A stretch of 35,823 nucleotides of DNA from a virus. The notes under the pieces are model-generated. The model ran no database searches. It was not told the origin of the DNA and was given only the letters and a program-made list of their open reading frames with translations. The stretch spans positions 1 through 35,823 of IMG/VR virus record IMGVR_UViG_3300025131_000188, one strand, 5' to 3'. Both the position numbers and the translations under genes were made by a program. Shown here piece by piece: positions 3,215-35,823 of this stretch (the first letter of the stretch is position 1; the number at the start of each line of letters is the position of its first letter).

Positions 3215-5182
3215 CTATAATGTACATGTATCGTTAGTGCAGAATTTTGTTCCCGCACCACCCTCGGATTCATCTATTCTGGCGAGGGGGGTAATCTTAG
3301 CAAACATTTTTTCATAGGTGTCTTTTGTAATAGACTCATAGGGAGCCTGCTCATAGCCTGTCTCTTGATACTTCAAGAAAGAAACAGCTTTTAATCTGGT
3401 CTCATACATTTCTAGCGCATTCTTAAGTTGGTGTGATTCGTCTTCTTTAAATGTCACAGTAATTGAAACTGAATTGTCTGCCCAATAATATTGATATTGA
3501 GCAGCAATCTCAAGCTGTTCCCATATGCTTACGTCGCACTTACTCTTCGTAAAATATGGCTCGTGGACTGGAAACTCCACTACCATTGTGCGTGGGGAAT
3601 ATTTATCCTTCTCAATATTATATCCGGAGTTCTTGAGCCTGTCAAGGATTTTTGAATCCTGGGAGAATCTAATGCGTCTAATGTAGTATTCGTCTTCCGG
3701 AAAATGAATACCGGGAGTGGAACCATTCAATAAAGAAACGGTGCCAGACGGCTTGATCGATGTCGTCCGGACAGATTTTGGAATGCATAGCCAGTTTGAA
3801 TACTCTTCATCTAATTCTTTGACATAATTATAAGCTTTGTCACACCACTCATACATTTCGCGGCGTCCATGCTTGTTAAATGCTTGGACCACTCCCGATT
3901 GGGACAGTCCAATGCGCCTGTTCTTGAGCATCTTGGCGTTAGTCTCTGGCCAGTGCGTGTTAGAGAGTGTGATGGTCTTGCCGTATAAATATGCAATCTT
4001 TAATGTCTTAAGGTAGTCTTCTAGATCGTCGTGCTTAGCTGGGAATGTTTCAACCAGACAGCAAAGCTCTGCATCTTCAAGCTGTTGTTCTACGCACGGG
4101 TTAAAGCCGGCAACGTTAATGTCGTCTAGTCGGATCCCATCCTTAAAGCGGCCTCGGGTGCGCGCATTCTCTAGCCAGATGTATCCGGGCTCTCCGTTAG
4201 CTTGACTTTGTGCAGCGTGCCATGTGTAATCCATACCCACTACTGCATTGAAAGAGTTGTTGGACCCCCATCGATGATGATAAAGCTTTTCGTCATCGTT
4301 TTTCATTTCCAGATAATATCGATCATCATAGTTGCCAATGGCTAACGCGGCTGACCGACGAACATTACCAGCTACCACGCAGCGGCCAATGAGGTTTTCT
4401 GTATCTACTATATCAACTGACGAAACTGGTTCACCCGGCTTGCTTCCATAAAGCTTTACTAGGTTTTCATGAAGTTCTTTGAGGGGGCCATGGCCACTAG
4501 AGGTTCCACCAAATCCATGGATAAGGGCGCCTTCGGGACGGATGGCAGAATAATCAAACTTGGGAACCTTTCCTCCAAAGAAAAATCCATCCAACAACAG
4601 ATGGACAGAATCTACCCAGCCCTCGCGGGAGTCGTCAATGACCAGTGTATCATTTGTATATTGTGGTTCTTGAACGGTCAGCGTGTTGGCTCCTTCAGTA
4701 TCAAATCCTACGCCAATCCCCAGCATCAAAGCATCCATCATCCACGCAAAAAGATATCCCCCCTTGCTGGAGAGATCTCTTGTGGAGCGGAACGCGCAAT
4801 TAAAAAGTCCTGCGGCGGTGCGCTCTTCTACAAACTTGGTACCCATCATCCAGAGGCCGCGACCAGGAGGCGTCCACTTCAGATTAAACAGCCGGTCATA
4901 AGCTTCTTTGGCAGTCTTTTGTGCCTTTGCATCATTCCATTCAAGACTAAGCAAAAAGACATGTTGCTTTTGCATGTTAAACATCCCTTCAATCACACGC
5001 TTGCAGGTTTGCCACCATTCTTCTGATCCACTGGCATCTGGATCGAATTCGCTAAGCCTACGAGAGTAGGTGCGTTTGAATGTGACGTATCCTAGTGGAC
5101 CCCATGGTACTTCTTTAGTTTTATAGGGCTCCAAAAAGGTGTCTGATAGTCGGAATCTCCGGATGTTTTCTATGGTTCTCAT
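3215..5182 (-). CDS. Class II (adenosylcobalamin-dependent) ribonucleotide reductase, monomeric RTPR type
   Basis: It reduces ribonucleotides to deoxyribonucleotides for phage DNA synthesis. The 655 residues align throughout with the Lactobacillus leichmannii enzyme (739 residues as I recall it): shared blocks include WGxLGxVTxKRTY near the start, IHGFGGTSSG, VAGNVRRSA, and TSIKPSGTVSLL. Active-site cysteines are conserved: C129 and C374 as the redox pair, C363 as the thiyl-radical cysteine in NPCVE with N361 and E365, and a C-terminal CX4C (C648, C653) as the shuttle. The usual NPCGE glycine is Val here. The segment around residues 160-190 is much shorter than in the Lactobacillus enzyme, where an insertion forms the allosteric site, so allosteric control may be reduced. 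No intein is present. It starts six bases after the helicase stop. Confidence 0.93.
   Translation of the reverse strand: MRTIENIRRFRLSDTFLEPYKTKEVPWGPLGYVTFKRTYSRRLSEFDPDASGSEEWWQTCKRVIEGMFNMQKQHVFLLSLEWNDAKAQKTAKEAYDRLFNLKWTPPGRGLWMMGTKFVEERTAAGLFNCAFRSTRDLSSKGGYLFAWMMDALMLGIGVGFDTEGANTLTVQEPQYTNDTLVIDDSREGWVDSVHLLLDGFFFGGKVPKFDYSAIRPEGALIHGFGGTSSGHGPLKELHENLVKLYGSKPGEPVSSVDIVDTENLIGRCVVAGNVRRSAALAIGNYDDRYYLEMKNDDEKLYHHRWGSNNSFNAVVGMDYTWHAAQSQANGEPGYIWLENARTRGRFKDGIRLDDINVAGFNPCVEQQLEDAELCCLVETFPAKHDDLEDYLKTLKIAYLYGKTITLSNTHWPETNAKMLKNRRIGLSQSGVVQAFNKHGRREMYEWCDKAYNYVKELDEEYSNWLCIPKSVRTTSIKPSGTVSLLNGSTPGIHFPEDEYYIRRIRFSQDSKILDRLKNSGYNIEKDKYSPRTMVVEFPVHEPYFTKSKCDVSIWEQLEIAAQYQYYWADNSVSITVTFKEDESHQLKNALEMYETRLKAVSFLKYQETGYEQAPYESITKDTYEKMFAKITPLARIDESEGGAGTKFCTNDTCTL
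3617..3645 (-). promoter_or_regulatory. Perfect-consensus sigma-70 promoter inside the reductase gene
   Basis: On the minus strand TTGACA (3645-3640) and TATAAT (3622-3617) are separated by exactly 17 bases, matching the full sigma-70 consensus. It lies in coding sequence about 400 bases before the reductase stop and would produce an RNA for the Cys-rich, co-chaperonin and endolysin genes. Activity is inferred from sequence only. Confidence 0.55.
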
Positions 5183-5188
5183 TTGTTT

Positions 5189-6565
5189 TTATTTCCTTTT
5201 TAATCTTGAATATTTTTCTCGTAATAATTTCTGCTGTTCTTTGGAACTTAGCGTAAGCGGGGCTGTTACAACAGAATTAACTGTGGTGGGCATCGATGCT
5301 TTTGGAAGAATCTTAATCTGTACATTGGATGTATCCATAAAGATAGGATACACCATCCCATCCGGCCCATTTCTATTCTTTGCAATAAACAGCTTTCCCT
5401 GATTATTTTGTTTGTCTTCGATTGTTCGAGAAATCGAAAAGATAAAGTCTGCTACGAAACACTTGTTAAATGCTTCTGAGATCTGCTCCATTGTAATAAC
5501 TTCTGCGCTTAATCCAGAGCGATTTGTTTGCGATGCTGTCCATATGGGACACTTGAATTCCGAAGCGAGCGCGCGTAGCTCTTCGTAAATAGACTCAAGC
5601 TCGTTTCTCTTCTCTTTTCTTGCGATAACCGGTTTTAAAAGATCGGCATAATCAATAATAATCATACCGGGAGTAATGCCCCGCTTGAGCAAGCGCGCAA
5701 GATGGGAGCGAATTGTGTTGGTGCTGGCTGACTTGGTGGGATACTCTTTAACAATCAAAGAGCCATCAAGCTCTTTAATCTCTTCATAGATTTCGTCTTT
5801 AAAGCTACGAATATCTGAAAGTGGGTAGCCAGTAATACAACTATCGTAACGTATTCCAATAACGGTATCTTGCAATTCAAGTGTGTAATGTACAACCGTC
5901 TTGCCCTCTAAGATCCCTTGGGCGCCAAGATGCACTAACGCCATTGACTTTCCTGCGCCTGTGGGTGCAATAACAACGCCTAATTCACTTTTGCCGAGGC
6001 CCCCGCCAGTAATTGTGTCTATTTCTTTCCACCCTGTGGTCATAGGATTTCGATGCTTGGGCTTAAACCTCTCTTCAAAATCAGCAAAATAGTCATAGCC
6101 GAAATTGTTTTCGGATCCAAGTTTAAGAGCATCATTAATAACTGTAGAGATTTCATCGAACGAGCAATTTTGTAGCAGCCCTACAGATTTCATCATGGCT
6201 TCTTTAAGGTTTTGCTTGCGGCAAAAATCCAGAGAGGTTTCCTTAATGTATAATATGTCGGACATTTCACGCGTATGAATTCTAGCGAAATAATCGCGTA
6301 CTTGATTTTGTGTAACCTCATCCTCATTATCCATTTCGGTTCTAAGAATTGTAATCATTGCCTCGACAGAAGGATGGGTGCCGTATCTATTTCGATAGTT
6401 AATAACTTTGGTAACAAAGACGCGTAAATATTCAAGTTCTAAAAATTCTGTGTCGAGGACTTCGGTAATCTGATCCGCGAACGGTCTGTCCTCAAAAATA
6501 AGTTGTACTAGTCCCTCTTGGAAGGCTTTTCCGTACCTTCCAAAATTCACATTTTCAGTGAGCAT
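5189..6565 (-). CDS. Replicative DNA helicase, DnaB/T4 gp41-like
   Basis: This is the hexameric helicase that unwinds the fork ahead of the polymerase. The 458 residues split into an alpha-helical N-terminal region (about 1-150) and a RecA-like motor domain. The Walker A is APTGAGKS at 200-207 and the Walker B MIIIDYADLL at 301-310. The TGWKEID segment before the P-loop is typical of DnaB-family proteins, as is a Gln-containing motif (ASQTNRSG) after Walker B. The C-terminal 40 residues are basic and probably disordered. GAGGGAA precedes the ATG. The gene has its own promoter candidate in the 62-base gap after the flap endonuclease and probably drives the reductase as well. No separate primase gene is visible in this window. 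Confidence 0.9.
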   Translation of the reverse strand: MLTENVNFGRYGKAFQEGLVQLIFEDRPFADQITEVLDTEFLELEYLRVFVTKVINYRNRYGTHPSVEAMITILRTEMDNEDEVTQNQVRDYFARIHTREMSDILYIKETSLDFCRKQNLKEAMMKSVGLLQNCSFDEISTVINDALKLGSENNFGYDYFADFEERFKPKHRNPMTTGWKEIDTITGGGLGKSELGVVIAPTGAGKSMALVHLGAQGILEGKTVVHYTLELQDTVIGIRYDSCITGYPLSDIRSFKDEIYEEIKELDGSLIVKEYPTKSASTNTIRSHLARLLKRGITPGMIIIDYADLLKPVIARKEKRNELESIYEELRALASEFKCPIWTASQTNRSGLSAEVITMEQISEAFNKCFVADFIFSISRTIEDKQNNQGKLFIAKNRNGPDGMVYPIFMDTSNVQIKILPKASMPTTVNSVVTAPLTLSSKEQQKLLREKYSRLKRK

Positions 6566-7669: not shown

Positions 7670-7990
7670 TTAGCGATATCTGCGGGCTGGTGGGTGTGGT
7701 CTGCCGCGGCCTTGGATGTATCTAACATGCGTATGCGGCTGTCGTGACAACATCTGGCGAGGCACCGTTCGCAAATCCCAATACCCGTGTACCCACACAC
7801 CACGCGGAGTTCGGTGTCCCCTTACCCAGACCCATGCACGGACATTGACACTAACATTGTGCGTGTGGGGATGGGGGGTGTGACGCACGACTGGTGGTGC
7901 GGGTGGTCGCTGACTCGGTGGAGGGGTGTGTGCGTGAACTGTGCAGCCACTCCCAATTAAAGCTATAAAAGCTATAGTGAATTTATTCAT
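7670..7990 (-). CDS. His/Pro-rich putative lipoprotein
   Basis: The protein has 106 residues. Residues 1-16 (MNKFTIAFIALIGSGC) form a short signal peptide ending in a Cys with a loose lipobox, so the mature protein is probably lipid-anchored. A Pro-rich stretch (TPPPSQRPPAPP) and alternating His-Pro follow, then a Trp/Val-rich section with WVWVRGHR and WVHGYW. That section resembles the YXWGXW repeats of bacterial surface lipoproteins. A short, Pro-rich lipoprotein could be an outer-membrane spanin (Rz1-like), but it lies far from the endolysin and no inner-membrane partner is visible. Alternatively it changes the host surface. Its ATG overlaps the recombinase stop by eight bases, so it is translated from the same mRNA, and a terminator follows. 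Function unknown. Confidence 0.65.
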   Translation of the reverse strand: MNKFTIAFIALIGSGCTVHAHTPPPSQRPPAPPVVRHTPHPHTHNVSVNVRAWVWVRGHRTPRGVWVHGYWDLRTVPRQMLSRQPHTHVRYIQGRGRPHPPARRYR

Positions 7991-9149
7991 TTTGTTTTCC
8001 TTTCTCTGCTGGTGCGGCTAATTCGTCCGGATCTTCATAAAAATCTTCTGCGCTTCCATCCCGACGATCAAATCTTTGAATAACCTCTTCATCCATTAGA
8101 CGTATGACGTGCTCTCTAAATTCATTATCGGTTTTAATAATCTCGGTCCACTTTGAAGGCTGGAATTTCTTGGAGTATCCGTCTGCAGTTTCTAATGTAT
8201 ACCACGCACCCTTGGAAGTGAGACACTCGGATGTTTTAATAGCATCAAACCAACTCTCTTCGTCTCGGATACCAACTTCGTCAGTGCCCCACATAATACG
8301 GAAAGCACAATTTCTTCCTTGAGTTCCAAACCTAGACTTCTCCAGTCTAATCTTGACTTCGGATCCGATACGGAAACCTTTATCATCCATCACAAACGCA
8401 CTCTTAGCCTTGCGTCCGGTTAGCCAGATACGCAAAGAATAAGAATAGTGCATAGCTTTTCCGCCCGGTGTCATATAGGGCGTAGTCATCGCTGTGATAT
8501 GCGCCATAGGGCCGCTAGTAATGTTGGTCTTAAGCTGGTTAAGAACCAAGAAGGTTGCTTGCTTGTCTGCAATCGGGAGAGTAAGCTTTGACATTCCCTT
8601 CGCAAGGATGCGCGCCTTCATTGCCATCGAGGATTGAGGATTAAAGTCGCCCTCAACATCTGATACCGATGGAGTGAATGCTAGAGAGTCCCAAATCAAC
8701 AACAGCTTTTCATCCGTTGCTGCCAGAAGTTCTTCAATCGTCTCCAATACAAACTCGACAGACGATGCCTGAACGTACATTAACCGCTCTAGGTCGCATC
8801 CTGCTGCCTCCAAAAAAGCAGGGTCGATGGCTGACTCGGAATCAAAATACACCACCAGCTTATCCTGTTTTTGGGCGTTCGCTGCAATCTGTGCAGCCAT
8901 GTAAGATTTGCCTGTGGAGGTGAGTCCTGCAATCTCTGTGACCTTACCAACAGGAATGCCTGCGTACTGTCCTTTACAGATAATACTATCCAGCCAGCGG
9001 GAGCCTGTGGGTATCCACTCTTTGACTTCCGTAGGATTGTCTCCTGTCAGGTCGTGGGCCACGTTGCGGCCCGCTTTTTTATTTACCAAGGTCATGAGAT
9101 CTTGCATAGATACACGACCAGCTTTAGTTTGTTTTGCCTTTCTCGGCAT
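7983..9149 (-). CDS. UvsX/RecA-like recombinase
   Basis: This strand-exchange ATPase forms filaments on single-stranded DNA for recombination-dependent replication and repair. The 388 residues contain Walker A GLTSTGKS at 75-82, a catalytic Glu in SESAIDP at about 105, and Walker B LLLIWDS at 149-155. LNQLKTN at about 204 is the allosteric Gln motif, and a glycine-containing L2-like loop (MTPGGKAMHY) follows. The N-terminus is basic. The C-terminus is acidic (about 350-380), as in RecA-type proteins where it modulates filament assembly. It resembles phage UvsX more than host RecA in length and spacing. GGAAGG precedes the ATG. It follows the SSB gene, its functional partner, after a 64-base spacer that holds a hairpin. 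Confidence 0.9.
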   Translation of the reverse strand: MPRKAKQTKAGRVSMQDLMTLVNKKAGRNVAHDLTGDNPTEVKEWIPTGSRWLDSIICKGQYAGIPVGKVTEIAGLTSTGKSYMAAQIAANAQKQDKLVVYFDSESAIDPAFLEAAGCDLERLMYVQASSVEFVLETIEELLAATDEKLLLIWDSLAFTPSVSDVEGDFNPQSSMAMKARILAKGMSKLTLPIADKQATFLVLNQLKTNITSGPMAHITAMTTPYMTPGGKAMHYSYSLRIWLTGRKAKSAFVMDDKGFRIGSEVKIRLEKSRFGTQGRNCAFRIMWGTDEVGIRDEESWFDAIKTSECLTSKGAWYTLETADGYSKKFQPSKWTEIIKTDNEFREHVIRLMDEEVIQRFDRRDGSAEDFYEDPDELAAPAEKGKQNE

Positions 9150-10036: not shown

Positions 10037-10877
10037 GTGTTTTTTGTTCTTGTACTACGTTTGTGTGGGCAACGCAGAACCCAAAATCATTGTGGTCAGT
10101 TTCGTATATTGCATACGAAATCTTTTTATAAGCATTCCTTGGCTTTTCTTTAAGCATATCAACTAATTTCTTGTGCAGACCGCCTTCGGTCTCCATTCGT
10201 TTCTCATTTATACATATATAATAACATAGCTCTCGGGACTTGTCAAGGTCAAAAAGCCATTTTTCTTCTAAATTTTCTATGTCCAGCATGCCGACCGTTC
10301 GAATGCGATTAATGTCAGATGGTCTTGAAATTTGACCGATTTCTGGATCGGTGAATTCAAAGAAATTCAGATAGTGAACGGTGGAAAAAATCGATTGGTT
10401 GAGAGTGTCGAAGTAGGTCTTAATAGGTACCTCTCCTAAAACCTTTTCGAGATGTAGGTTCGAGATGAAGGTTATTGATTTAAACAATCCCGAGCGCGCA
10501 TATTCTTGCAATACACCGAAAGTGACATTCTCTAATAACTGTGCATTCTCTGTGAGTAGATCCGTATCAGGCTTGATATAGAATAAGTCGATTTGTCGAT
10601 CTTTAATCTGTTCCAAAATTCCTAAAGTATAGTTAGAGCTTTCACTAGCCCCTGTGACAAAGACTTGTACTCTGGTGTTTACTGCTGCGAAAAACTTTGC
10701 GAGGTCTGGGATGTTGTTCTCGTACTCTTCTGCGCTATTATAGCTTTTAATTTTAAATTCTTTTTTGGTGTTCTTGAAGACTTTATTGTTTAAAAGAAAA
10801 ACATTGTAATTTTCAATAGACGTAAACTTTTCTGCGATGGCGCATGCAGCGTTGCCAATGCCAATGATTGAGATCAT
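10020..10877 (-). CDS. Divergent FtsZ/tubulin-like protein (tentative)
   Basis: The protein has 285 residues. The architecture follows the GTPase half of FtsZ/tubulins. The N-terminus has a first strand and nucleotide loop (ISIIGIGNAACAIAEKF; FtsZ has IGVGGGGxNA). After about 65 residues comes a strand and loop VFVTGASESSNYTLGIL at the place of the GGGTGTG signature. Then come IDLFYIKPD (FtsZ VVTKPF), a long helix, and a strand ending FISNLHLEKVL (FtsZ IPNDKLL). The tubulin signature is largely lost (GASESSN instead of GGGTGSG), so GTP binding may be altered or absent. The gene starts inside the polymerase stop (ATGA) and is thus coupled to it. Known phage tubulins (PhuZ, TubZ) centre or segregate DNA. 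A different Rossmann-like fold remains possible. Confidence 0.45.
   Translation of the reverse strand: MISIIGIGNAACAIAEKFTSIENYNVFLLNNKVFKNTKKEFKIKSYNSAEEYENNIPDLAKFFAAVNTRVQVFVTGASESSNYTLGILEQIKDRQIDLFYIKPDTDLLTENAQLLENVTFGVLQEYARSGLFKSITFISNLHLEKVLGEVPIKTYFDTLNQSIFSTVHYLNFFEFTDPEIGQISRPSDINRIRTVGMLDIENLEEKWLFDLDKSRELCYYICINEKRMETEGGLHKKLVDMLKEKPRNAYKKISYAIYETDHNDFGFCVAHTNVVQEQKTLDSSS
10218..10246 (-). promoter_or_regulatory. Intragenic sigma-70 promoter upstream of SSB
   Basis: TTGACA (10246-10241), a 17-base spacer and TATTAT (10223-10218), inside the tubulin-like coding region about 240 bases before the SSB start. With the proximal promoter at 10036 it would give SSB tandem promoters. 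Confidence 0.5.
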
Positions 10878-12058
10878 AGCTTAAGCTCCTCTAAATCGTA
10901 ATAATTTTTACCGACATTTAGATTAACTAAATAATTAGCTAGTTTGTTTTCGGCAAAAAGTTTTTTAATTTCAGGTATTAGTTCTCTCTCGCCATCAGCC
11001 AAATCAATAATAATTTCATCATGGACAATATGAGAAATAAACGATTTTTTATCTTCTAAAAATTTATCAATCTCGACCGCTCTTTCCAACACTATATCGG
11101 CGGTTGTGCTTTGAATTAAATAGTTGAGCGCTTTCTTGGAGCTTACCTTTATCTTTCGGTCAAAGGGAGTCATCACATGCGTTCCATCATACCACTCCTT
11201 AAGCAATGTTTCCCGATGATAAAGAGCGAATTCGTCATCATTTGAATCATAATTATAAAGCCACGCAAAGAACCTTATTTTCGCATCTTCTCGGGTCAAT
11301 TCATCTTCGATAAGATTCTTAATGTGCCACTGATGAACGTCTTCTTGCGGCTGCTCTTCGCCCGCCAACGCAATAAAGGTACGCACCTCTGCAGCATTAT
11401 AGTCGAGTGATAAAAACCAATCATTACGAGGCTTTAGTAGTTTGCGAAAATCTTTTTTAAGCGTGAGGGCCGGAAAAGATTCTGACCGCGTGGTGAGCCT
11501 TCCTGTGATTGTTCCAAAGAGATTGTAGTCGATAAACCGTGGGCCCTCTAATAAGAGATTGGCCCTTGCTCGATTAATAGAAGAATAGTACAACTCTTTG
11601 CATCCTTCATTGTTCAAATTTAATTTTTGATATTTGATCTTGAACAATAATTTCTGTACGGCATCTAGATGCGCGTAATTTTGTGGCTCTTCAAAGTTTT
11701 CAAACACATGCTCTGTGATTCGGTTTTTAATCTCGCAGAATTGTTTTAAAAAGTCTTCTGGAACCAAGTCAAAGATGCAGTGATCATACATGTTAACCTT
11801 GGCTATTTTAAACGATTTTATATACGCTCTCAATCGTTTTTGAATTCGCAATAATTCAGACTCTAGGTCTGTAGGGCAGACATGGTTTAAGTCAAGGCCT
11901 TCGCAGAAAAGCCAAGCATACTTAACACCAGGATCGGTAATCGATCCACTGTATTTCCACGTCTTGTTTAAATTCTGTGGGAAGTCATCGTAATATAGCT
12001 TGCCGTCTGAATAGACGCCGATGCACTCTGATTTGTCATCAATGGTTTGGAAGATCAA
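10874..12058 (-). CDS. Minimal family-A DNA polymerase, no exonuclease domain
   Basis: Template-directed DNA synthesis. Only 394 residues, against more than 550 for most phage PolA proteins. It contains the palm and fingers of E. coli Pol I: TGRLTT with R187 (R668 in Pol I); motif A SLDYNAAEVR with D219 and E224 (D705, E710); the O-helix TREDAKIRFFAWLY with R256, K260, F264 and Y268 (R754, K758, F762, Y766); a QSTTAD motif; and motif C IVHDEI with D347 and E348 (D882, E883). The first 170 residues are a shortened thumb and unknown N-terminus; no 3'-5' exonuclease motifs (DxE, YxxxD) are visible. Proofreading must be absent or supplied by another gene. It overlaps both neighbours by ATGA and has a promoter at 12100-12128. 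T4 itself uses a family-B enzyme. Confidence 0.85.
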   Translation of the reverse strand: MIFQTIDDKSECIGVYSDGKLYYDDFPQNLNKTWKYSGSITDPGVKYAWLFCEGLDLNHVCPTDLESELLRIQKRLRAYIKSFKIAKVNMYDHCIFDLVPEDFLKQFCEIKNRITEHVFENFEEPQNYAHLDAVQKLLFKIKYQKLNLNNEGCKELYYSSINRARANLLLEGPRFIDYNLFGTITGRLTTRSESFPALTLKKDFRKLLKPRNDWFLSLDYNAAEVRTFIALAGEEQPQEDVHQWHIKNLIEDELTREDAKIRFFAWLYNYDSNDDEFALYHRETLLKEWYDGTHVMTPFDRKIKVSSKKALNYLIQSTTADIVLERAVEIDKFLEDKKSFISHIVHDEIIIDLADGERELIPEIKKLFAENKLANYLVNLNVGKNYYDLEELKL

Positions 12059-13269
12059 CTTGTTTCCGATTCGTCCGCGAGGGCCTTTATCTGTTTATTA
12101 ATATAACTCAAAGAGCCGTGATAGTCAAATGTTTTATTCAAAATTTGTTCAAAAATTGTGAGAGCAGATGGGGTTCCAAGGCCTTCCTGCGCCTGCAAGC
12201 ATTCTTGAATCAGTCTTTTTTGCTCTTGTTCACTAAAGTGGGATTCTTCTTCTAAAAATCTGATTTGGAAATATTTCTTTAAAAAATAGGAAGTTGGAAA
12301 TTTTTTTTCTAACTCAGATAACTCATATGAATCTGACTCTAAATAATGAGTGTGAATCGTGTCATCTCTACATGTGGTAGTCTGAATAATAACCTGCCTG
12401 CGCAGCCGATTATAGATCCTCAAAAGAGTTTGAGGAAATGTCCTAAAATAATCAAAATGCACATAATTAAATTGGTTTAATAAAACCAAATCAGGAGTGC
12501 CTACCCCGTATGCTTTGCCATATTCGCGCATTATTTCAGAATCAATATCCGCTACCATTCTCCATGGAGCATTTAAGTCTATCATAAATCCATAAGAATT
12601 GCAAGCATTAACATAAAAATTAAAATTTCTACTATTAATAAAATCCTTTATTTTTTCATCGTCATTTTCATAACTTAAATCCGCTATCTCAATTGCAAAG
12701 CCGCTGCAATTAATTGGACACCAACGGCTCTTTATATATGCAGTTTTAGTTAGGGGAAAGGTTAGGGCGCCGTTTTGGATTATATTTAATAGACTCTCTA
12801 CAAACCCCTCAAAGTTCATGACATCTATTTTTCTTTTTTCAAATTGAGATGCTAGTGCATTAGTGAAAACATCTAAGTATGCATCATAACGAAAATTAGG
12901 ATCGAGGTACGCTTTGTGAACTTTAATCTTTGAAAGAAAAGGATCATCTCCAGAAATTTGTCCAATAGCCACACATTTTTCAAACTGTTTGGCAAAATCA
13001 TTAAACACGTCTACCACAAAATTCATTGCTCTCATATCAGCGGAAGGCTCTAGTAAATATTTAGGAGCAATCTTCTTTAAAAAACCGTTCCCTTTAATTT
13101 GAATGGGTATATATTTACGTCCTACGCGTCCAAAAAGAAATTTTTCACCTATATTAAAATCTACAATATGACGAGGCTTTTTATTTTTAAGTATTGTTCG
13201 GTAAAGTGTTCTTTTATAGAACAACTCCGTGGTGCTTTCATTATTATTTTCTGCAAGTAAATCTGACAT
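12055..13269 (-). CDS. Conserved phage protein of unknown function, 404 residues
   Basis: I do not recognise the family. The protein is AT-rich in coding, hydrophilic with many aromatic residues, and has no signal peptide or membrane segment. The middle (about 150-300) has several strand-like stretches with Trp, Cys and Asn (SRWCPINCSGFAIEI, NACNSYGFMIDLNAPWRM), and the C-terminus is helical and charged. It lies between the giant baseplate protein and the polymerase: 14 bases after the former and overlapping the latter by ATGA. It could be the last late gene (virion or assembly protein) or the first replication gene. No nuclease or ATPase motif is seen. The start lacks a clear Shine-Dalgarno. 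A promoter for the polymerase lies in its 3' end. Confidence 0.7.
   Translation of the reverse strand: MSDLLAENNNESTTELFYKRTLYRTILKNKKPRHIVDFNIGEKFLFGRVGRKYIPIQIKGNGFLKKIAPKYLLEPSADMRAMNFVVDVFNDFAKQFEKCVAIGQISGDDPFLSKIKVHKAYLDPNFRYDAYLDVFTNALASQFEKRKIDVMNFEGFVESLLNIIQNGALTFPLTKTAYIKSRWCPINCSGFAIEIADLSYENDDEKIKDFINSRNFNFYVNACNSYGFMIDLNAPWRMVADIDSEIMREYGKAYGVGTPDLVLLNQFNYVHFDYFRTFPQTLLRIYNRLRRQVIIQTTTCRDDTIHTHYLESDSYELSELEKKFPTSYFLKKYFQIRFLEEESHFSEQEQKRLIQECLQAQEGLGTPSALTIFEQILNKTFDYHGSLSYINKQIKALADESETS
12100..12128 (-). promoter_or_regulatory. Sigma-70 promoter for the DNA polymerase, inside the upstream gene
   Basis: TTGACT (12128-12123), a 17-base spacer and TATATT (12105-12100), about 42 bases before the polymerase ATG and within the last codons of the 404-residue gene. 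It would start the replication transcript independently of the baseplate genes. Confidence 0.55.
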
Positions 13270-22853: not shown

Positions 22854-25800
22854 TTAGTCATCGAATGATGCCCCCGTAGAAGCAATCACAAAGTCAATTG
22901 CGATATATTCGATTGCTCGGGCAGGCTTAATCATAATCTTGGCATACATGATGTTCTGGTCGATAAGGTCTGGAGTCGTTGTGGACTCATCCAAAATCAA
23001 TCGGTAATCAGTGATACCAAAGTTAGTCTTAACGTTCGCAAGGAACGGCTCTACCAAAGACTTAAATCTGTTCCACGTCGCTTGCACGTTTTGTTCAAAC
23101 AAGATTTGAGTGGACAGAATAGAAATTTGCTTCTTAAGGTAAATCACCAGTCTGCGAACATTAATTCTGTCAAGAGCGGATTGACCGTCTTGGAGAGTCT
23201 TCTGTCCGAAGACCACGATTCCTGTGTTGGGGAACGAAGCAATCGGGTTGATTCTTGCGTCATAGAGAGTGTCTCTATTCTTGGAGGTTAATCTTTCCGT
23301 CACGGCTGTAACTGGGATTCCGGCAGCACCTTCGGTAAGACCGCCGCGGTTAAAGCCAGCGGGGGCAAACCACAAGTCTGTCTTGGCCTGTGAACTGGCG
23401 AGAACGCCCATCATAGCCACAGAAGGCGGTACCCACAAGAGAATACCGGTTCCTTCATCTCGGGTTTGGACCCAAGGATAGAAAGTACAACCATAGCTGG
23501 AGTTAATCCTTCTATCGCGCAAGTTGTTAGAAGCCTGGATGGGCGTCGTGCGCAGTCGGTCAGACTTATCGGAATAATATGCCTCGGAAGCCGGGACATA
23601 CACATCCTTCAAGTCAATTACTGCTAACGTGTCTGCGCGTTCTGCTGCCACATTAATCATGTGACCGGTTAAGTCGTCGTTTGTCAATCCAGGGACTGCC
23701 ATCAGATTCATATCCAGATACTCGGGATCGGCCACTGTATCAATAGCTCTCTTGTATGTGTAATAAATTGAGCTATTTCTCTCGGTGGAGCTTCCAACAG
23801 TCATTCCGGCATTGTATAGCGGATCGGGAAGGTTAATATTAAGCCCATCAAATCCGCCCCACAAAGGTGCCGTGAAGCGATTGTAGCCCTGGTCAAGCAA
23901 GTCTGCATAGGATGCGCTTGTTACACTGTTCTCAGCTTTACGAGAGCCAGACTCATACGTATAGATATTTAAGGCGTCTTTCTTGATGTCGTCCAAAGTA
24001 AAGACATATCCCCATCCATCGCATCCCTTAAGGGCAGTAGCGCGGATGGCACCTAAAGTGGGGTCAGACGGGAAGTCTGCAAAGAGCAGCCTATGTGCGT
24101 CTGCGGTACTAGCGTCAAAGCGTGTGCTTGTAGCATCGCGCGATGTTTGATATCCAAAATACGCATTTGTTGGGTCAGACATGCCACCATCGGATGCGGA
24201 AGACCGCAAGCGATCCGTGGGGAAAATCAAGGATGCAGAAATCTGGCCAATATTACTTGAACCAGTCACTAAGGGCGCACCCGTTTGGCCTACTCCCATA
24301 TTTCCTGCAAGACTTACTACTGTTCCTGTCATTGCGTATACGGACATATAAACTGATTTGTTGTTCCATACAGCAGACGAGACGAGACCGCCGGTGCCAT
24401 CATATGGACCACCTGTAGCACTAGAGCTAGCGCGTGTTGCATCTGAAGCCCCAATGTTAAGGATATCGGACCATTTTGGTGGACCATAGTATCCAAAGGG
24501 CAGATAGAGCGGGTCGGTTGCGCCTGCTTCTACGTCAGAGTTCATTTCAACGTAAACAAACTTAGAGTTGTTGGCATATTCGCCGTAGCGACGTAATCTC
24601 TTCTGTGTAGTATCCCACTTGAGATACTGATCTCCAATCTTTCGTGCAACGAAGTTGGGAGAAGTCGGGTCAAGATTACAGTTGTCGAATCTCTCCATTA
24701 CTTGAACATCGTTATCAGAATCGCTGATTGAGCGCAGGACTACGGAGAATGTTCCATAATCGTAACCTGCGGCTGTTGAGGTTCTAATGTCTTGAATGGA
24801 CACCTTAATATTCTTGTGTAACCATTCACCATGGCCGCGGCCCTTTAACCTAAAGAGCTTTTGCATACTTTCAGGATTAAAGCTTGCCGCTGCTCCAAGA
24901 TCTTGAGCAACAAACCAGCCGGCAACTGCCTCTCTAGAGGGCTGATTCTTTACGTTCTGGGGGCCTGTTCCTGCGGTGCCACTTAGGGCAAGCGGCAGGA
25001 TGGCGCCGACCAATGCGGCAGTCGTAAGATTTGTTCCACTACCGGTTAACGCATTAGCTGCGGGGTTGCCGCATCTTAATTGCTCTTCGAAAGTTTCTCC
25101 AAGCCAATAAACTTTTCTGGCCGGGGCCGGATATAAAGTTCCACCGGTGCTGGTGAGTTGCGGATTTGTATTAAAACGCTTGCGGATAAAAGTTTCCTTG
25201 GTATCGTCAAATCCAAACTTAATTTTTTCGCCACTTCCGGTTCCGGAAATTACAACTGTGAATAGTTTGTTAGAATCTGCTTCCACCAACAGTCCAACAC
25301 CACCACTAACCGGGTTGGTGTTTCCATCGGCTCCCATTCCAGCGTGCGTGTTAAAAACAGTTCCACTCAACTGAATGTCTGCTCCGGAGGACTCATCTAA
25401 ATACCAAATTGCAGCTAAGGAGCCAGTACCTGCGTTTGCTCCGCCTGCCGCGGTTCCATCTGTAGAAGCGCTTGGAAAAACAAAGAGGCCGTAGGCGCCG
25501 CCATTGCTGGCCTGCGCGACGGCGGGATTATTTTGAGTTGCCCAGCCGGCTTGTCCAGCGGTTGTCGGGTTGGAATCCTGTTGCCCTAGGAGACGCACGT
25601 ATGTAAGAGGAGCTACATTAGATCGTAAAAAGGCCTTCGCGGCATACGTTCCATACATGGGCGATTGGTAATTACCATCTCGGTAAACATCACCACCACC
25701 ATTACCAGGGACCGTATCTCCAAACATCTCTACGAAATGTGAATAAGACTGTACCTTTACCGGCTGCATTGCGAGCCCTCTGCGGGCCCGGCCCATTACT

Positions 25801-25898
25801 ACTGGACCAATCTCTTCAGCAGATTTGGGAATAAATGAATTATCAATTTCATTTATAAAAACACCGGGAGATACAAATTTAAATCTTTTTACTGACAT
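22854..25898 (-). CDS. Contractile tail sheath protein, T4 gp18-like, enlarged
   Basis: It forms the contractile cylinder round the tube. The protein has 1014 residues against 659 in T4. The N-terminus VSPGVFINEIDNS followed by GPVVMGRARRG is the standard sheath opening (SPGV-x-E-D). The C-terminal 200 residues hold the other conserved part: NRGGLTEGAAGIPVTAVTERLTSKNRD, INPIASFPNTGIVVFGQKTL, and RINVRRLVIYLKKQI, ending with the polymerisation arm. The extra length lies in the middle (about 130-600), rich in Gly, Ser, Thr and Asn and probably a surface-exposed set of beta domains. AGAGGA precedes the ATG. A terminator and ACTATTTA motif upstream make it the first gene of its unit. Confidence 0.92.
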   Translation of the reverse strand: MSVKRFKFVSPGVFINEIDNSFIPKSAEEIGPVVMGRARRGLAMQPVKVQSYSHFVEMFGDTVPGNGGGDVYRDGNYQSPMYGTYAAKAFLRSNVAPLTYVRLLGQQDSNPTTAGQAGWATQNNPAVAQASNGGAYGLFVFPSASTDGTAAGGANAGTGSLAAIWYLDESSGADIQLSGTVFNTHAGMGADGNTNPVSGGVGLLVEADSNKLFTVVISGTGSGEKIKFGFDDTKETFIRKRFNTNPQLTSTGGTLYPAPARKVYWLGETFEEQLRCGNPAANALTGSGTNLTTAALVGAILPLALSGTAGTGPQNVKNQPSREAVAGWFVAQDLGAAASFNPESMQKLFRLKGRGHGEWLHKNIKVSIQDIRTSTAAGYDYGTFSVVLRSISDSDNDVQVMERFDNCNLDPTSPNFVARKIGDQYLKWDTTQKRLRRYGEYANNSKFVYVEMNSDVEAGATDPLYLPFGYYGPPKWSDILNIGASDATRASSSATGGPYDGTGGLVSSAVWNNKSVYMSVYAMTGTVVSLAGNMGVGQTGAPLVTGSSNIGQISASLIFPTDRLRSSASDGGMSDPTNAYFGYQTSRDATSTRFDASTADAHRLLFADFPSDPTLGAIRATALKGCDGWGYVFTLDDIKKDALNIYTYESGSRKAENSVTSASYADLLDQGYNRFTAPLWGGFDGLNINLPDPLYNAGMTVGSSTERNSSIYYTYKRAIDTVADPEYLDMNLMAVPGLTNDDLTGHMINVAAERADTLAVIDLKDVYVPASEAYYSDKSDRLRTTPIQASNNLRDRRINSSYGCTFYPWVQTRDEGTGILLWVPPSVAMMGVLASSQAKTDLWFAPAGFNRGGLTEGAAGIPVTAVTERLTSKNRDTLYDARINPIASFPNTGIVVFGQKTLQDGQSALDRINVRRLVIYLKKQISILSTQILFEQNVQATWNRFKSLVEPFLANVKTNFGITDYRLILDESTTTPDLIDQNIMYAKIMIKPARAIEYIAIDFVIASTGASFDD

Positions 25899-29142: not shown

Positions 29143-29649
29143 TTAAGAAGCTGCTGACGTTGCGAACAGTGTATCTGTCACATCAATAACGACGCCCGTA
29201 CAGTGCATGTAAGTGCCATCGGACACGAAGTCAAACCTTTCACCACTAGTCGAGCTAGTGCTGCAATTAATGAAATCGTGTGTCGTGCCGTCAGCAACAT
29301 CGGCGCCGCCGCCGTCACCACCGATAATCAGGCCGGTGAAAAACTCACCACTCGCCGTTCCAATGTTTACAATTTGGTCCATTGTTCCGCCGTCATCCTC
29401 GTTAATAATAATGGTGCAAGTCCAACCCCCGCCGACATCGGCCGCAGCAGGCAACTGAATTAAAGTTGTTGCAGCCGGGTTGACCTGAATAAATGCTCCA
29501 CTATCTGCGGCTGTAACGGTATAGTCGGCGGTCTTAAGCAAAAACCGGGCTTTCTGCCCTGTCAGCGTTGCGCCCCCCATCGTCAACTCTCTCTTCAAGT
29601 TCTCAATCAATGCTTGGGTTCTCGCCAAGCCTACTCTTTTAGTTCCCAT
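29143..29649 (-). CDS. Capsid-associated/decoration-like protein
   Basis: The protein has 168 residues. A short helical N-terminus (KRVGLARTQALIENLKREL) precedes a Gly/Thr-rich beta module: DYTVTAADSGAFIQV, IQLPAAADVGGG, a strand TCTIIINEDDGG, and a closing FVSDGTYMHCTG. The same kind of module ends both fibre-like proteins near 33-34.5 kb, so it is probably a trimeric beta-structure domain reused here. It sits right after the major capsid gene between two terminators, which gives it its own abundance; a head decoration or head-fibre protein is the likely role. GGAGGG lies before the ATG. The family is not known to me by name. Confidence 0.65.
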   Translation of the reverse strand: MGTKRVGLARTQALIENLKRELTMGGATLTGQKARFLLKTADYTVTAADSGAFIQVNPAATTLIQLPAAADVGGGWTCTIIINEDDGGTMDQIVNIGTASGEFFTGLIIGGDGGGADVADGTTHDFINCSTSSTSGERFDFVSDGTYMHCTGVVIDVTDTLFATSAAS

Positions 29650-31646: not shown

Positions 31647-32840
31647 TTACTTAATACCTGCTAGTCTTTTCATCCTATCCGCAATGGGATCGAATGATGT
31701 GCTTTCCTTGCGGGAAGCACGAATAACAGAAGTACCACGACGACCAATTGCTTCACTCAACGATTGGGGGCCAGCCTTAGTGGCTGCCGGCGTTGCGTTT
31801 TCGAGCGTATGGTATATTGTTTTCGCCTCTGTTACTGAACCAGCTTTTGAAATAGCGTCGGCAATTTTTGACTTTTGCCGCTCATTTAGGGAGGTATTTC
31901 TCAAAACACGGTTCGTGTAAAGCAAGCGAGCATTCGAAAGATTTACTTCATGTAAGTTCTCTCTTAGCTCTTCAGTTGCTTGCTTGTATTGTTCAAGTGA
32001 TTCCTTGAGTTGTTTATTTTCAAAAACCAACTCTTCAGAAGCCTTCTTCAAATCTTTCATATGTTTTTCTACTTCGGTGCTACGACGATGCGCAATCGCT
32101 TTCTGTAGCTGCCAATTAATATCTTCGGATGTGCGTCCAGCCCAGCCTTGAAGCCGGGGGCCCATGTCAACCACAAGGCGCTCCGCAATCTCATCAATCA
32201 AATCATCGGGAAGGTCTACGTCTTCGTTTGTGGGCGCAGTCGAGCTTGCAAATGTACCAGGATCCTCGGGTTCTGTCTCCCTTTCTCCTTCCTCTTCTTC
32301 CTCTCCTTCTACGGCGCTCGCTTCTACGGCTGCACTTCCTTGAAGGGCGGCGCCGCTGTCACCGCCGGTGTCTTCGGCTAACATTGCTGCGAGTTCTTCT
32401 TCATTAAGGTTGAACTCTTGCTCATCTTGAAGCTGTTGTACTGCTTCGTGGAGAGCATCCAGATCAACATTAATCTCAACGTCCTCGCCACTCTTGGGAA
32501 GGTGGCCTAAGTTTTCGCCCTCTTCTTCCGATAATCCGTCTGTAGCTGCAAGAGGTACACCGTCTACGATCTCCTCTGCTTCGCCTCCCTCTTCGGCACC
32601 AAGCATCGGATCAGCCATCGGGTCTGCCATGGGGTCTGCCATGGGGTCTAAGCCGCCGGCCAAAGGATCCGCTGCACCTGCGGCCGGATCAGCACCTAAC
32701 TCGTCCTGCTCAATCAACTGTTCCAGAGTATTTCTAACCTCTTCCGAATACTTATCCAACACAGCCGTCTCGGCATTTTTTAAAGCTGCTTCACGTAATG
32801 CTTTGGCATCTACGATAGCTTCACTTAACAAAGTAGACAT
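31647..32840 (-). CDS. Prohead core scaffold protein, T4 gp22-like
   Basis: It builds the internal core on which the capsid assembles and is later degraded. The protein has 397 residues. A short helical N-terminus is followed by a long acidic, low-complexity region (about 45-215) with four DPMA-type repeats and a Glu run. Residues about 215-345 form a coiled coil (HMKDLKKASEELVFENKQL and onward), and the end has LLYTNRVLRNTSLNERQK, typical of gp22-like cores of marine T4-like phages, with DPIADRMKRLAGI at the C-terminus. Position directly before the capsid gene supports the call. The gp21 protease usually found next to it is not in the window; fibre-like genes occupy that place. Confidence 0.85.
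   Translation of the reverse strand: MSTLLSEAIVDAKALREAALKNAETAVLDKYSEEVRNTLEQLIEQDELGADPAAGAADPLAGGLDPMADPMADPMADPMLGAEEGGEAEEIVDGVPLAATDGLSEEEGENLGHLPKSGEDVEINVDLDALHEAVQQLQDEQEFNLNEEELAAMLAEDTGGDSGAALQGSAAVEASAVEGEEEEEGERETEPEDPGTFASSTAPTNEDVDLPDDLIDEIAERLVVDMGPRLQGWAGRTSEDINWQLQKAIAHRRSTEVEKHMKDLKKASEELVFENKQLKESLEQYKQATEELRENLHEVNLSNARLLYTNRVLRNTSLNERQKSKIADAISKAGSVTEAKTIYHTLENATPAATKAGPQSLSEAIGRRGTSVIRASRKESTSFDPIADRMKRLAGIK
32604..32651 (-). repeat. 12-base tandem repeat in the scaffold gene
   Basis: Four 12-base units encode (A)DPM-type repeats. The two central units are identical and the others differ by a few bases, so unit number could change by slippage without changing frame. 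Confidence 0.7.
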
Positions 32841-32976: not shown

Positions 32977-34260
32977 TTATACAATCTTCCAAGCGTTAGA
33001 GCCTGCGAAAATGAATGTAATGGCGCCTTGAGACGACTCAATAATCATTTCGTTTAATCCATCAATCGTATGCGATGCAGAAGTTTCAACTGTAATTCTA
33101 TTGCTTACACTAGCTCCTGTACCCGCTTTAAGATACACTACATCCCCTGTGCTAGGACTGCCCGGCAAGCTAACTTGAATAGCTCCAGTTAATGCAGCCG
33201 TATAGTTTAATCCAGCATCAAGTGTTGTCTGATCTGCTTTGCTCGCAACATCTACGCTAGATGCTTGTGCATCAGCCGAAAGAACACCACCAGCAGCCGA
33301 GAGGCGCGCTCCGGCTATGGCATCTACTAAGTCTACAATGCTTTCTTTCTTAGAATCACTGCCTGCATCAGCGTCAATAATAGCAATACTGTCGGCAGCA
33401 ACATCTACAGTAGCAGCCCCTAGTCCATTAAGATCCAATTGTAATGAAATGCTGTTTTCTGAAGCAAGACCTGTACCACCTAATTGCGTGCAAAGAGCGG
33501 CCTGTGTGCCCACGTAGAATTTACCCGGGTCAGGCGCGGCTCCGTTAATCATAACGAATCCATCTTCATGGAAAGCCGAAGCGCTCGTTGCTAACCCAGT
33601 AAAGGTTAATGAATCTCCGACAAAGCCAGAACCACTAATGGTTGTACCAGCATCGATTGTAGTCGAAGCTACAATTGAACCGGTAACGTTTACATTGGCA
33701 AGACCATAAAGATCTTTAGCAGAACTGATAAGCTCTGAACCACCAACTTTAAGAGTGTTTCCTTGAATAGTCGCACCCGACATAATAGTAGTTGCTGTAA
33801 CAGTCGTAGAAGCTAGAATTGTACCTGTGACATTAACGTTGGCGAGATTGTACAGATCTTTATTAGAACTGATCATCTCCGCACCGCCAAGATGCAGCGA
33901 GTTTCCTCGAACAGTTGCACCAGATACAGTAGTAGTTGCTCGTACCGTAGTAGAAGCTAAGATAGAACCCGTTGCGTTAATGTTGGCAACTTTATGAATG
34001 TCCCTCCCAGCACTAATAACCTCGGTGGTGTCTACCGTATACGATTCACCAGCAATACCTCCATCTGCAGTAATAGCACCTGCAGCGCTGATGGTTACAC
34101 CAGAGCCCCCAGAGCCACCCCCAACAGATAAGGCGCCGTCAAACGAACCAGACGAACCTAAGACGCCATGAGAGGCAGACACCTGTCTACCGCTCAGATT
34201 TTGTTCATATGTTGTAGCACCACTTAGGGTGGTTACTCCATATTGAAATTTATAAGCCAT
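32977..34260 (-). CDS. Repeat-containing fibre-like virion protein
   Basis: The protein has 427 residues, mostly Gly/Ser/Thr/Ala-rich beta structure. Residues 1-70 (GRQVSASHGVLGSSGSFDGAL) form an N-terminal module common in aquatic phage fibres. Residues about 70-212 hold two complete and two partial 48-residue repeats (ASTTVRATTTVSGATV, GNSLHLGGAEMIS, then NVNVTGTIL). Residues about 220-340 are a second domain (VMINGAAPDPGKFYVG, SIVDLVDAIAGARLSAAGGVLS). The last 85 form a beta module ending GSNAWKIV, similar to the ends of two other proteins here. A trimeric tail or head fibre is likely; no adhesin or chaperone domain is recognised. GGAGGG lies before the ATG. Confidence 0.65.
   Translation of the reverse strand: MAYKFQYGVTTLSGATTYEQNLSGRQVSASHGVLGSSGSFDGALSVGGGSGGSGVTISAAGAITADGGIAGESYTVDTTEVISAGRDIHKVANINATGSILASTTVRATTTVSGATVRGNSLHLGGAEMISSNKDLYNLANVNVTGTILASTTVTATTIMSGATIQGNTLKVGGSELISSAKDLYGLANVNVTGSIVASTTIDAGTTISGSGFVGDSLTFTGLATSASAFHEDGFVMINGAAPDPGKFYVGTQAALCTQLGGTGLASENSISLQLDLNGLGAATVDVAADSIAIIDADAGSDSKKESIVDLVDAIAGARLSAAGGVLSADAQASSVDVASKADQTTLDAGLNYTAALTGAIQVSLPGSPSTGDVVYLKAGTGASVSNRITVETSASHTIDGLNEMIIESSQGAITFIFAGSNAWKIV
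33625..34053 (-). repeat. 144-base tandem repeats in the 427-residue fibre gene
   Basis: Two full and two partial 144-base units (48 residues), homologous to the array in the neighbouring fibre gene. Equivalent positions recur at about 33932, 33788 and 33644. Confidence 0.85.
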
Positions 34261-34381: not shown

Positions 34382-35823
34382 CTATACAATGAAGAATTTA
34401 GTCGACCCATCGCAATAAATGGTGATTGATGCATAAGACGACTCTAAAACAGCACTTGTTTGTCCGTCAATTGTATTCGATCCATCACTTCCTGTGACGG
34501 TAATGTTGTTAGTTCCAGCAGATCCGTTCTCATCTTTAACTATAAACATCTGGCCCGCTGTGAGTGAACTTGCGGCCGGCAACGTCAAAACTACGGCCTC
34601 TCCTGAACTGTCCACACCAATGAGATAATCTGAATTGGTTACAGTATAATCATCGTCCTTAGTCGCTCTCTTGACAATTATACCACCAGTTATGGTGAGC
34701 TTCGTACCGTCAAATTTAAGGTTTCCTTCAGCTTTAACCGTTGATCCATCAACCGATGTTAGTATTCTATTGTTGCCAGCATTCTGGTATGACGTAATGG
34801 CGCCGGCGGCGGAGGATGTAAGCACAAGCTTGCCAGAAGTATTAAGTCCGACATAGCTACCGGTCCCAGCGAGCGATCCACTTGAAGCGCCAATGTATAC
34901 ACCGCCGGTAACATTAAGGTTGGTGACATTGTGAATATCTTTGGCCGGCGTGATCAGTTCGGAACCGCCAATGCTAAGACTATTTGCTTGAGCCGTCGCA
35001 CCTGACATGGTAGTGGTAGCTCTAACGGTAGTAGAGGCTAAAATAGAACCCGTCGCATTAATATTTGCAACATTATAGAGATCCTTCGCAGAGCTTACTA
35101 TTTCAGAACCTCCGACCTTAAGGCTATTTACTTGACCGGTCGCGCCTGACATGATGGTCGTTGCTCTTACGGTAGTAGAGGCAAGAATTGAGCCCGTCGC
35201 ACTGATGTTTGCAACATTATGAAGATCGCGCGCTGAACTTACTATTTCAGAGCCGCCGACGCTAAGGCTGTTAACTTGACTAGTCGCTCCGGATACTGTT
35301 GTTGTTGCCCTTACAGTGGTGGAGGCCAGAATAGAGCCGGTTGCGTTGATGTTTCCTACATTATGTACATTCTTCTCAGAACTAATAACTTCGGATCCGC
35401 CCACCTTTAAGACGTTTGCTTGCGCAGTAGCACCAGAGATTGTTGAGGTGGCCACAACAGTGTTGGTGGCACTAAGTGTTGTTCCATCGAACGTTAGATT
35501 AGCCTCAGAATTAACCGTGCTAGAATCAACAGACGTTATAACTCTATTATCGGCTGGATTTGTATAAGAAGTGATCGCTGCAGAGGTGCCCGTCGAAGAT
35601 GTTAGCACTATTCTGCCTGATGTATTCAAGCCTAGATAGCTACCGGTTCCTGCGAGGGAGCCGCTAGTGGCGCCCATGTATATGCCACCCGTAACATTAA
35701 GGTTGGTGACATTGTGGATATCTTTTGCGGGAGTAATAATCTCAGTACCACCAATGTTTAAGAGATTAGCTTTTGCAGTTGCGCCAGAAACTATAGTGGT
35801 AGCTCTTACAGTAGTGGAGGCTA
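34382..35823 (-). CDS. Long repeat-containing fibre-like protein, 5' end outside window
   Basis: The frame is open to the window edge, so the true start lies upstream; an internal ATG at 35677 is not the start, because repeat sequence continues before it. From the edge: one repeat, a 69-residue spacer module (GATSGSLAGTGSYLGLNTS, NRVITSVDSSTVNSEANLTF), four 48-residue repeats, the spacer again (IGASSGSLAGTGSYVGLN), and a C-terminal beta module (DYTVTNSDYLIGVDSS, VLTLPAASSLTAGQ, ITIYCDGSTKFFIV). The 48-residue unit is ASTTVRATTTVSGA, then NSLKVGGSEIVSS, AKDLHNVANI and NATGSIL. This is probably a fibrous trimer, hence a tail or head fibre. The protein could be much longer than what is seen. Confidence 0.65.
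   Translation of the reverse strand, partial: ASTTVRATTIVSGATAKANLLNIGGTEIITPAKDIHNVTNLNVTGGIYMGATSGSLAGTGSYLGLNTSGRIVLTSSTGTSAAITSYTNPADNRVITSVDSSTVNSEANLTFDGTTLSATNTVVATSTISGATAQANVLKVGGSEVISSEKNVHNVGNINATGSILASTTVRATTTVSGATSQVNSLSVGGSEIVSSARDLHNVANISATGSILASTTVRATTIMSGATGQVNSLKVGGSEIVSSAKDLYNVANINATGSILASTTVRATTTMSGATAQANSLSIGGSELITPAKDIHNVTNLNVTGGVYIGASSGSLAGTGSYVGLNTSGKLVLTSSAAGAITSYQNAGNNRILTSVDGSTVKAEGNLKFDGTKLTITGGIIVKRATKDDDYTVTNSDYLIGVDSSGEAVVLTLPAASSLTAGQMFIVKDENGSAGTNNITVTGSDGSNTIDGQTSAVLESSYASITIYCDGSTKFFIV
34895..35470 (-). repeat. Four 144-base tandem repeats within a 783-base higher-order repeat
   Basis: Four consecutive 144-base units (48 residues each). The unit and its spacer module start again at 35678, giving a super-period of 783 bases (261 residues). 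Nucleotide identity between units is visibly lower than protein identity. Confidence 0.88.

Follow-up and report, generated by a model that had tools for sequence, protein, structure and literature searches.

Two neighbouring genes of a phage, both of which probably encode virion fibres, carry a tandemly repeated 48-residue unit, and the divergence between copies of this unit is old and under purifying selection. We consider it probable that the units are old duplicates kept by ordinary selection on the protein, with the divergence of their codons a by-product of age; the DNA of the units is as alike as chance predicts or more, not less. Repeats that differ in spelling are thus no proof that selection acted against recombination—codon shuffling together with orthologue controls is a simple way to separate age from avoidance.

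The window, meaning the whole stretch of DNA analysed, is a virus record of 35,823 bases that is classed as linear, and its recognised genes all lie on the minus strand. To judge from its gene content the phage is T4-type, since a Gp23 capsid protein (Pfam Gp23, E 1.4e-71), a UvsX-like recombinase (7983-9149, minus strand), a DnaB-like helicase, a tail sheath, and a tail tube are present. Its capsid relatives in the phage collection are distant (the best-ranked rows show 33-38% identity over 95-96%, or 46% over 62%), and the closest IMG/VR contigs reach 77% identity in their best-matching segment. Neither the named phages nor the viral contigs, sets from which very near records may be missing, yielded a near-identical phage.

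Several other genes of the window show features of their own. The tail sheath gene (22854-25898, minus strand) encodes 1014 aa, of which sheath profiles cover only residues 663-1012 or so, leaving a large N-terminal part unmatched; the ribonucleotide reductase (3215-5182, minus strand) has the insertion domain of B12-dependent (class II) enzymes. In the region 10874-13269 (minus strand), a DNA polymerase A match is confined to a 394-aa gene with a TTG start (10874-12058), and the overlapping 404-aa gene upstream of it matches no polymerase. Phage RM378 is known for a split polymerase. After the capsid gene lies a 168-aa gene (29143-29649, minus strand) that by eye is like the C-terminal fibre domain described below (DYTVTAAD...LPAAADVGGG); it has matches neither among PHROGs (E 0.001) nor in Pfam (0.01). 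The scaffold-like gene contains a 12-nt tandem repeat of 3.8 copies (32604-32649) that encodes repeated MADP.

Fibre gene A (34382-35821, minus strand) is an open frame of which 479 aa can be read, its 5' end being lost at the contig end; fibre gene B (32977-34260, minus strand) encodes 427 aa and has a MAYKFQ N-terminus. The initial annotation had described 48-residue units in tandem, recurring in the next gene, and both observations hold: the period is 48 aa (144 nt) in each gene, and Tandem Repeats Finder reports 144-nt arrays independently in A and in B. An HMM built from the seven clear units scores them at 86-99 bits (these units were in the model), and given these scores and the arrays in both genes, chance is no reasonable account of the repeats. 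Gene A has five units, all on the minus strand: A1 (35678-35821, residues 1-48), A2 (35327-35470, residues 118-165), A3 (35183-35326, residues 166-213), A4 (35039-35182, residues 214-261), and A5 (34895-35038, residues 262-309). Gene B, on the same strand, has two clear units, B2 (33814-33957, residues 102-149) and B3 (33670-33813, residues 150-197), preceded by a degenerate one, B1 (33958-34101, residues 54-101; 30.3 bits with the unit HMM). The units had also been called nearly identical, which they are not—any two of the seven clear ones have 26-41 of 48 residues in common (54-85%), with A3 and A4 alike at 41/48.

The array does not consist of 48-mers throughout. A1 is followed by a 69-residue module of a different kind, of the GSLAGTGSYLGLNTSG...NLTFDG type (35471-35677, minus strand), and a similar stretch, the second copy of the module, follows A5 (34688-34894, minus strand). 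A super-repeat of 261 residues had been proposed, and the two-level layout stands: residues 1-76 of gene A align with 262-337 at an offset of 261 aa (63/76 identical), and the alignment continues at an offset of 259. This offset arises because A1 and A5, which open the two super-repeat copies, pair with each other and are each followed by a related module; A5 is alike to A1 at 40/48 residues and to the adjacent A4 at 31/48. A repeated super-repeat is more than the window supports, with just one period visible as two partial copies (87/121 aa aligned), and more copies possible beyond the contig end. The two copies of the non-unit module match at 46/67 aa, with a codon excess of 0.088 (CI -0.083 to 0.278) that is near chance. 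By eye, a stretch in one related locus (L071) resembles this module.

The age of the units can be read from their synonymous divergence, for which all 21 pairs of the seven clear units were compared using Nei-Gojobori counts with Jukes-Cantor correction. In 13/21 pairs dS is saturated, lying beyond the correction, and the remaining eight have dS of 0.72-1.62, dN of 0.11-0.32, and dN/dS of 0.08-0.28; single-pair estimates are noisy with units of only 48 codons, and the pairs share units and are not independent. Divergence is thus far above that of a recent expansion; the initial annotation had taken divergence no higher than this as what would refute it, and its suggestion of old duplication under strong protein selection is supported by both the saturation and the low dN/dS. 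The accompanying remark that synonymous codons differ between units is equally sound: the ASTTV-bearing units (A1, A3, A4, A5, B2, B3) use six spellings in six units. In PMC5120217, dN/dS below 1 between repeats and a positive correlation between physical and evolutionary distance are reported as general for protein repeats; the same paper reports that within-protein repeats diverge faster than orthologues, under relaxed selection, which counts against our main reading.

A second suggestion was that synonymous differences are favoured because long identical repeats would recombine out through the phage's own UvsX-type recombinase. This mechanism predicts codon identity below chance, and the reverse is observed. 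When synonymous codons were permuted within genes A and B 2000 times with the protein kept, the shuffles gave a mean of 0.327 (sd 0.020) identical codons at identical residues and never reached the observed 268/653 (0.410) over all units. Adjacent units share 69/136 codons (shuffle mean 0.319, never reached), a result to which all four adjacent pairs contribute (0.48, 0.49, 0.50, and 0.56). A-B pairs share 116/301 (mean 0.324, reached by 1.75% of shuffles) and A1-A5 20/40 (mean 0.340, reached by 2.75%), while non-adjacent A pairs are at expectation with 63/176 (mean 0.336, reached by 28%). Expressed as excess with a bootstrap CI, codon identity is 0.266 (0.165 to 0.378) for adjacent units, 0.078 (-0.031 to 0.180) for A-B pairs, and 0.018 (-0.117 to 0.164) for non-adjacent A pairs, the lower bound of the last allowing mild avoidance between such units. 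Avoidance could also draw on the presence of the UvsX-like gene and on the scarcity of exact direct repeats, only three of which measure at least 14 nt in the 2845-nt A-B span. The longest of these, at 26 nt, has one copy starting in A5 (34908-34933, minus strand) and the other 783 nt off in A1 (35691-35716, minus strand); however, shuffled genes have a mean longest repeat of 14.7 nt (range 11-26), and only 1/500 reaches 26. With exact repeats so few and so short, the array is probably now nearly inert to homologous recombination.

Two wider comparisons point the same way. For an orthologue control, seven head and tail genes were compared with ORFs of related loci (phmmer E 1e-30, more than 100 aligned residues, no N); mean codon excess is 0.08-0.16 in the bins that cover 60-80% amino acid identity (385 comparisons in all), and the unit pairs scatter around this trend with excesses of -0.09 to 0.34. 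Internal repeats were then surveyed in the window's two genes and the related loci, skipping ORFs shorter than 200 aa or with N or stops as well as segments with fewer than 30 residues or 8 residue kinds, and thinning overlapping offsets. This gave 46 segments in 26/889 ORFs, four of them from the window itself; they are partly non-independent, with near-duplicate rows (L032/L033 and L064/L066) and two rows from an L015 ORF on the strand opposite to a fibre gene. Codon identity is above expectation at z > 2 in 22 segments and below it (z < 0) in six, with z < -2 in none. The combination of conserved residues and saturated codons is also met outside the window, since one segment pair in L071 has 71/82 residues and only 21/71 codons identical; the gene concerned (L071, 1060-4359, plus strand) is of fibre type, encodes 1100 aa, and carries long, related repeats at three offsets. 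Codon shuffling, the orthologue curve, and the 46 repeat segments together lead us to reject selection for codon difference, and we regard avoidance of identical DNA as highly improbable; a UvsX-like gene is indeed present, as had been noted, but nothing links it to the array.

Gene conversion among units, keeping the protein alike while mutation scrambles the codons, is a further explanation. By eye the sharing of codons is patchy (the first codons of A4-A5, the last codons of A1-A5), and codon identity is higher between neighbours than between non-adjacent A units (Fisher P 0.011, with pairs that are not independent). Conversion homogenises DNA along with protein, however, so that conversion alone cannot account for codon saturation. 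At most it fits in a minor role, and as the main explanation we think it unlikely.

Old duplication leaves room for the question of where the units duplicated. The C-terminal part of gene A is matched by 68 ORFs in 35/82 related loci (E 0.001), and its C-terminal domain matches short MAYNxLSGTV-type genes upstream of MAYKFQ-type genes in the relatives. Six loci were inspected and have short fibre-like genes between a putative prohead protease gene, which we take to be such by its resemblance, and scaffold-like and capsid genes. The HMM of the unit hits 1/82 related loci at E 0.001 (L036, weakly and partially), where a recognised fibre-type gene is present in only 34 loci besides the window and many of the 82 miss the region, and a search of whole records for 32 of the 82 finds a match in the record of L036 alone. 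Pattern searches of viral contigs and genome contigs found no contig with the tandem unit, and L087 is without it. Related contigs show no clear tendency to break more often towards the fibre genes than on the other flank of the capsid gene: the nearer contig end lies on the fibre flank in 25/43 contigs of at least 10 kb (binomial P 0.36, Wilcoxon P 0.14) and in 45/80 of all contigs. In the literature, judged by titles and abstract openings, we recognised nothing on this array or on synonymous divergence in phage fibre repeats.

The nearest relatives with an A-type slot (L010, L012, L016) have A-type genes of 234-256 aa without the unit. Compared with the window, their MCP genes have a codon excess of 0.401, 0.327, and 0.397, respectively, and the scaffold gene agrees (0.315, 0.259, and 0.333). 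Because the A-B unit excess of 0.078 is smaller than 0.327-0.401, with a CI that does not overlap the MCP excess of any of the three, the A and B units would have diverged before these phages parted, given similar synonymous rates in fibre and head genes; adjacent units (0.266) could date from roughly the time of the splits. Duplication in place alone does not explain relatives without an array—either they lost it or the window received it. The shafts of A and B are also each other's best match (202 bits, the next being 83 and 74) in a comparison that left out matches above 95% identity, whereas 65/70 shafts have their best match in another contig; only 5/70 have it in their own, two of these being A and B. 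A best match within the same contig, rare among the shafts compared, points here to transfer between the two genes at some time. In L036, two fibre-type genes (1415-2827 and 4099-6003, plus strand) share a stretch around NIASLDATTE.TIE.AIDTLANL, and the shaft of the first has that of the second (111 bits) as its best match, a further instance of two genes in one genome sharing a shaft.

The shaft may thus have been imported or transplanted ready-made and already diverged, from another phage or between A and B, instead of growing in place. The unit-less relatives, with MCP codon excesses of 0.33-0.40 against 0.078 for A-B, and the mutual best match of the two shafts both speak for this; however, the pattern searches yielded no donor, the composition of gene A is ordinary (GC3 is low in B only, z -2.3), and the pattern would look no different had the relatives lost the array or had fibre genes changed faster at synonymous sites. 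We treat import as possible but somewhat doubtful; it bears on history alone and does not conflict with old duplicates under protein selection. Equally tentative is the broader idea that fibre shafts in this phage group are exchangeable cassettes, a pre-diverged repeat shaft having been set between conserved N- and C-terminal parts in two neighbouring genes of one genome. If so, shaft ancestry would be decoupled from that of the genes and the surrounding head module, and a single step between neighbouring fibre genes could alter both the length and the surface of a shaft.

Structure prediction is informative mainly for the end of gene A. AlphaFold2, run on a single chain, models the C-terminal domain (34385-34681, minus strand, residues 381-479) confidently, with pLDDT of 91-96 per ten-residue block from residue 391, and the shaft poorly, at about 50, in the whole protein. 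Modelled alone, the shaft reaches pLDDT 70 in a single model out of five, the remaining four staying at 31-37, and it has no PDB match at E 0.001 or better; its weak matches are mostly beta-helix-like or amyloid-like (best Z 6.5). We name no fold for the shaft, given that the beta-helix proteins matched by the whole protein fall on the low-confidence shaft and shaft-alone matches are weak. The domain, in contrast, resembles CBA120 TSP4 (Z 13.5, 2.0 A, 94 residues), baseplate chains of a Klebsiella phage KP1 variant (Z 12.6 and 12.5), T4 gp9 (Z 11.2), chain 5iv5_AC of the T4 baseplate-tail tube complex (Z 11.1; presumably gp10, by its length), and the Pa223 capsid spike (Z 10.3). Across this set, which also includes the Solidus tailspike, residues 380-479 superpose at 1.8-2.5 A rmsd over 86-95 residues with Z of 10.3-13.5, as in a gp9/gp10-type beta domain, where unrelated proteins score Z 8.7 and 7.5 over the same residues. 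The model thus predicts a T4 gp9/CBA120 TSP4-like fold. Gene A has no PHROG tail fibre match at E 0.001; gene B has a weak match to phrog_972 (tail fibre proximal subunit; E 2.7e-4 over 82 residues). Gene position and the capsid-spike match are compatible with head fibres as well as with tail fibres.

Taken together, old duplication under purifying selection suggests the following course. The array would be the shaft of a virion fibre in a phage with a gp23 capsid, and the 48-residue unit would have spread by tandem duplication, by duplication of a larger block inside gene A, and by duplication between the two genes. These events would be so old that synonymous sites have since become saturated, with the residues of the shaft preserved by purifying selection. 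Neighbouring units would retain shared codons either as the most recent copies or through exchange of sequence, and codon divergence would follow from age, without any advantage of differing spellings. In function the fibre is probably a beta-structured shaft bearing a gp9/gp10-like C-terminal domain. We infer the shaft fold, the position of the fibre on the particle, and the order of the duplications, as well as whether these took place in this genome or before the arrival of the shaft.

Among the closest known systems are the fibre-gene arrays upstream of the capsid gene in four related loci (L012, L014, L057, L033), which share gene order and the C-terminal domain with the window and have MAYN-type and mostly MAYKFQ-type N-termini; unlike the window, all four lack the 48-residue unit. 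Upstream of the capsid gene, no annotated fibre was found in Flavobacterium phage immuto_3-5A, Rhodothermus phage RM378, or Microcystis phage Mel-JY01, and the unit HMM gave no hit to hypothetical proteins near their capsid genes; immuto_3-5A has a 'tail fiber protein' directly after its capsid gene. The second half of the unit (VGGSEIVSSARDLHNVANINATG) appears to be a motif known from other phage fibres, '..IGxxQVISSARQLQNIASLDAT..', which is carried by Prochlorococcus phage P-TIM68 (NC_028955.1) and Marine virus AG-345-O18. The P-TIM68 gene is annotated as 'baseplate wedge tail fiber protein connector' in NC_028955.1 and as 'hypothetical protein' in KM359505.1. Five viral contigs match the four-unit shaft at 29-37% identity, and the unit HMM hits 5/5; a 78-residue stretch of one of these contigs (L092) matches P-TIM68 with 55% over residues 1-58 (E 5e-7). 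In the five contigs, P-TIM68, and AG-345-O18 the motif stands alone or in spaced copies (three in L092), whereas in the window it is joined to a different half and recurs every 48 aa in two genes. The C-terminal domain of gene A is predicted to fold like the T4 gp9/gp10-type domain, also seen in CBA120 TSP4 and the Pa223 spike, at 12-22% sequence identity; in contrast to all of these, it lies at the C-terminus behind a long repeat shaft. T4 gp9 is the baseplate trigger and long-fibre connector, and gene A would share with it this one domain alone—its overall architecture, with a repeat shaft, and its setting beside scaffold-like and capsid genes instead of baseplate genes are different.
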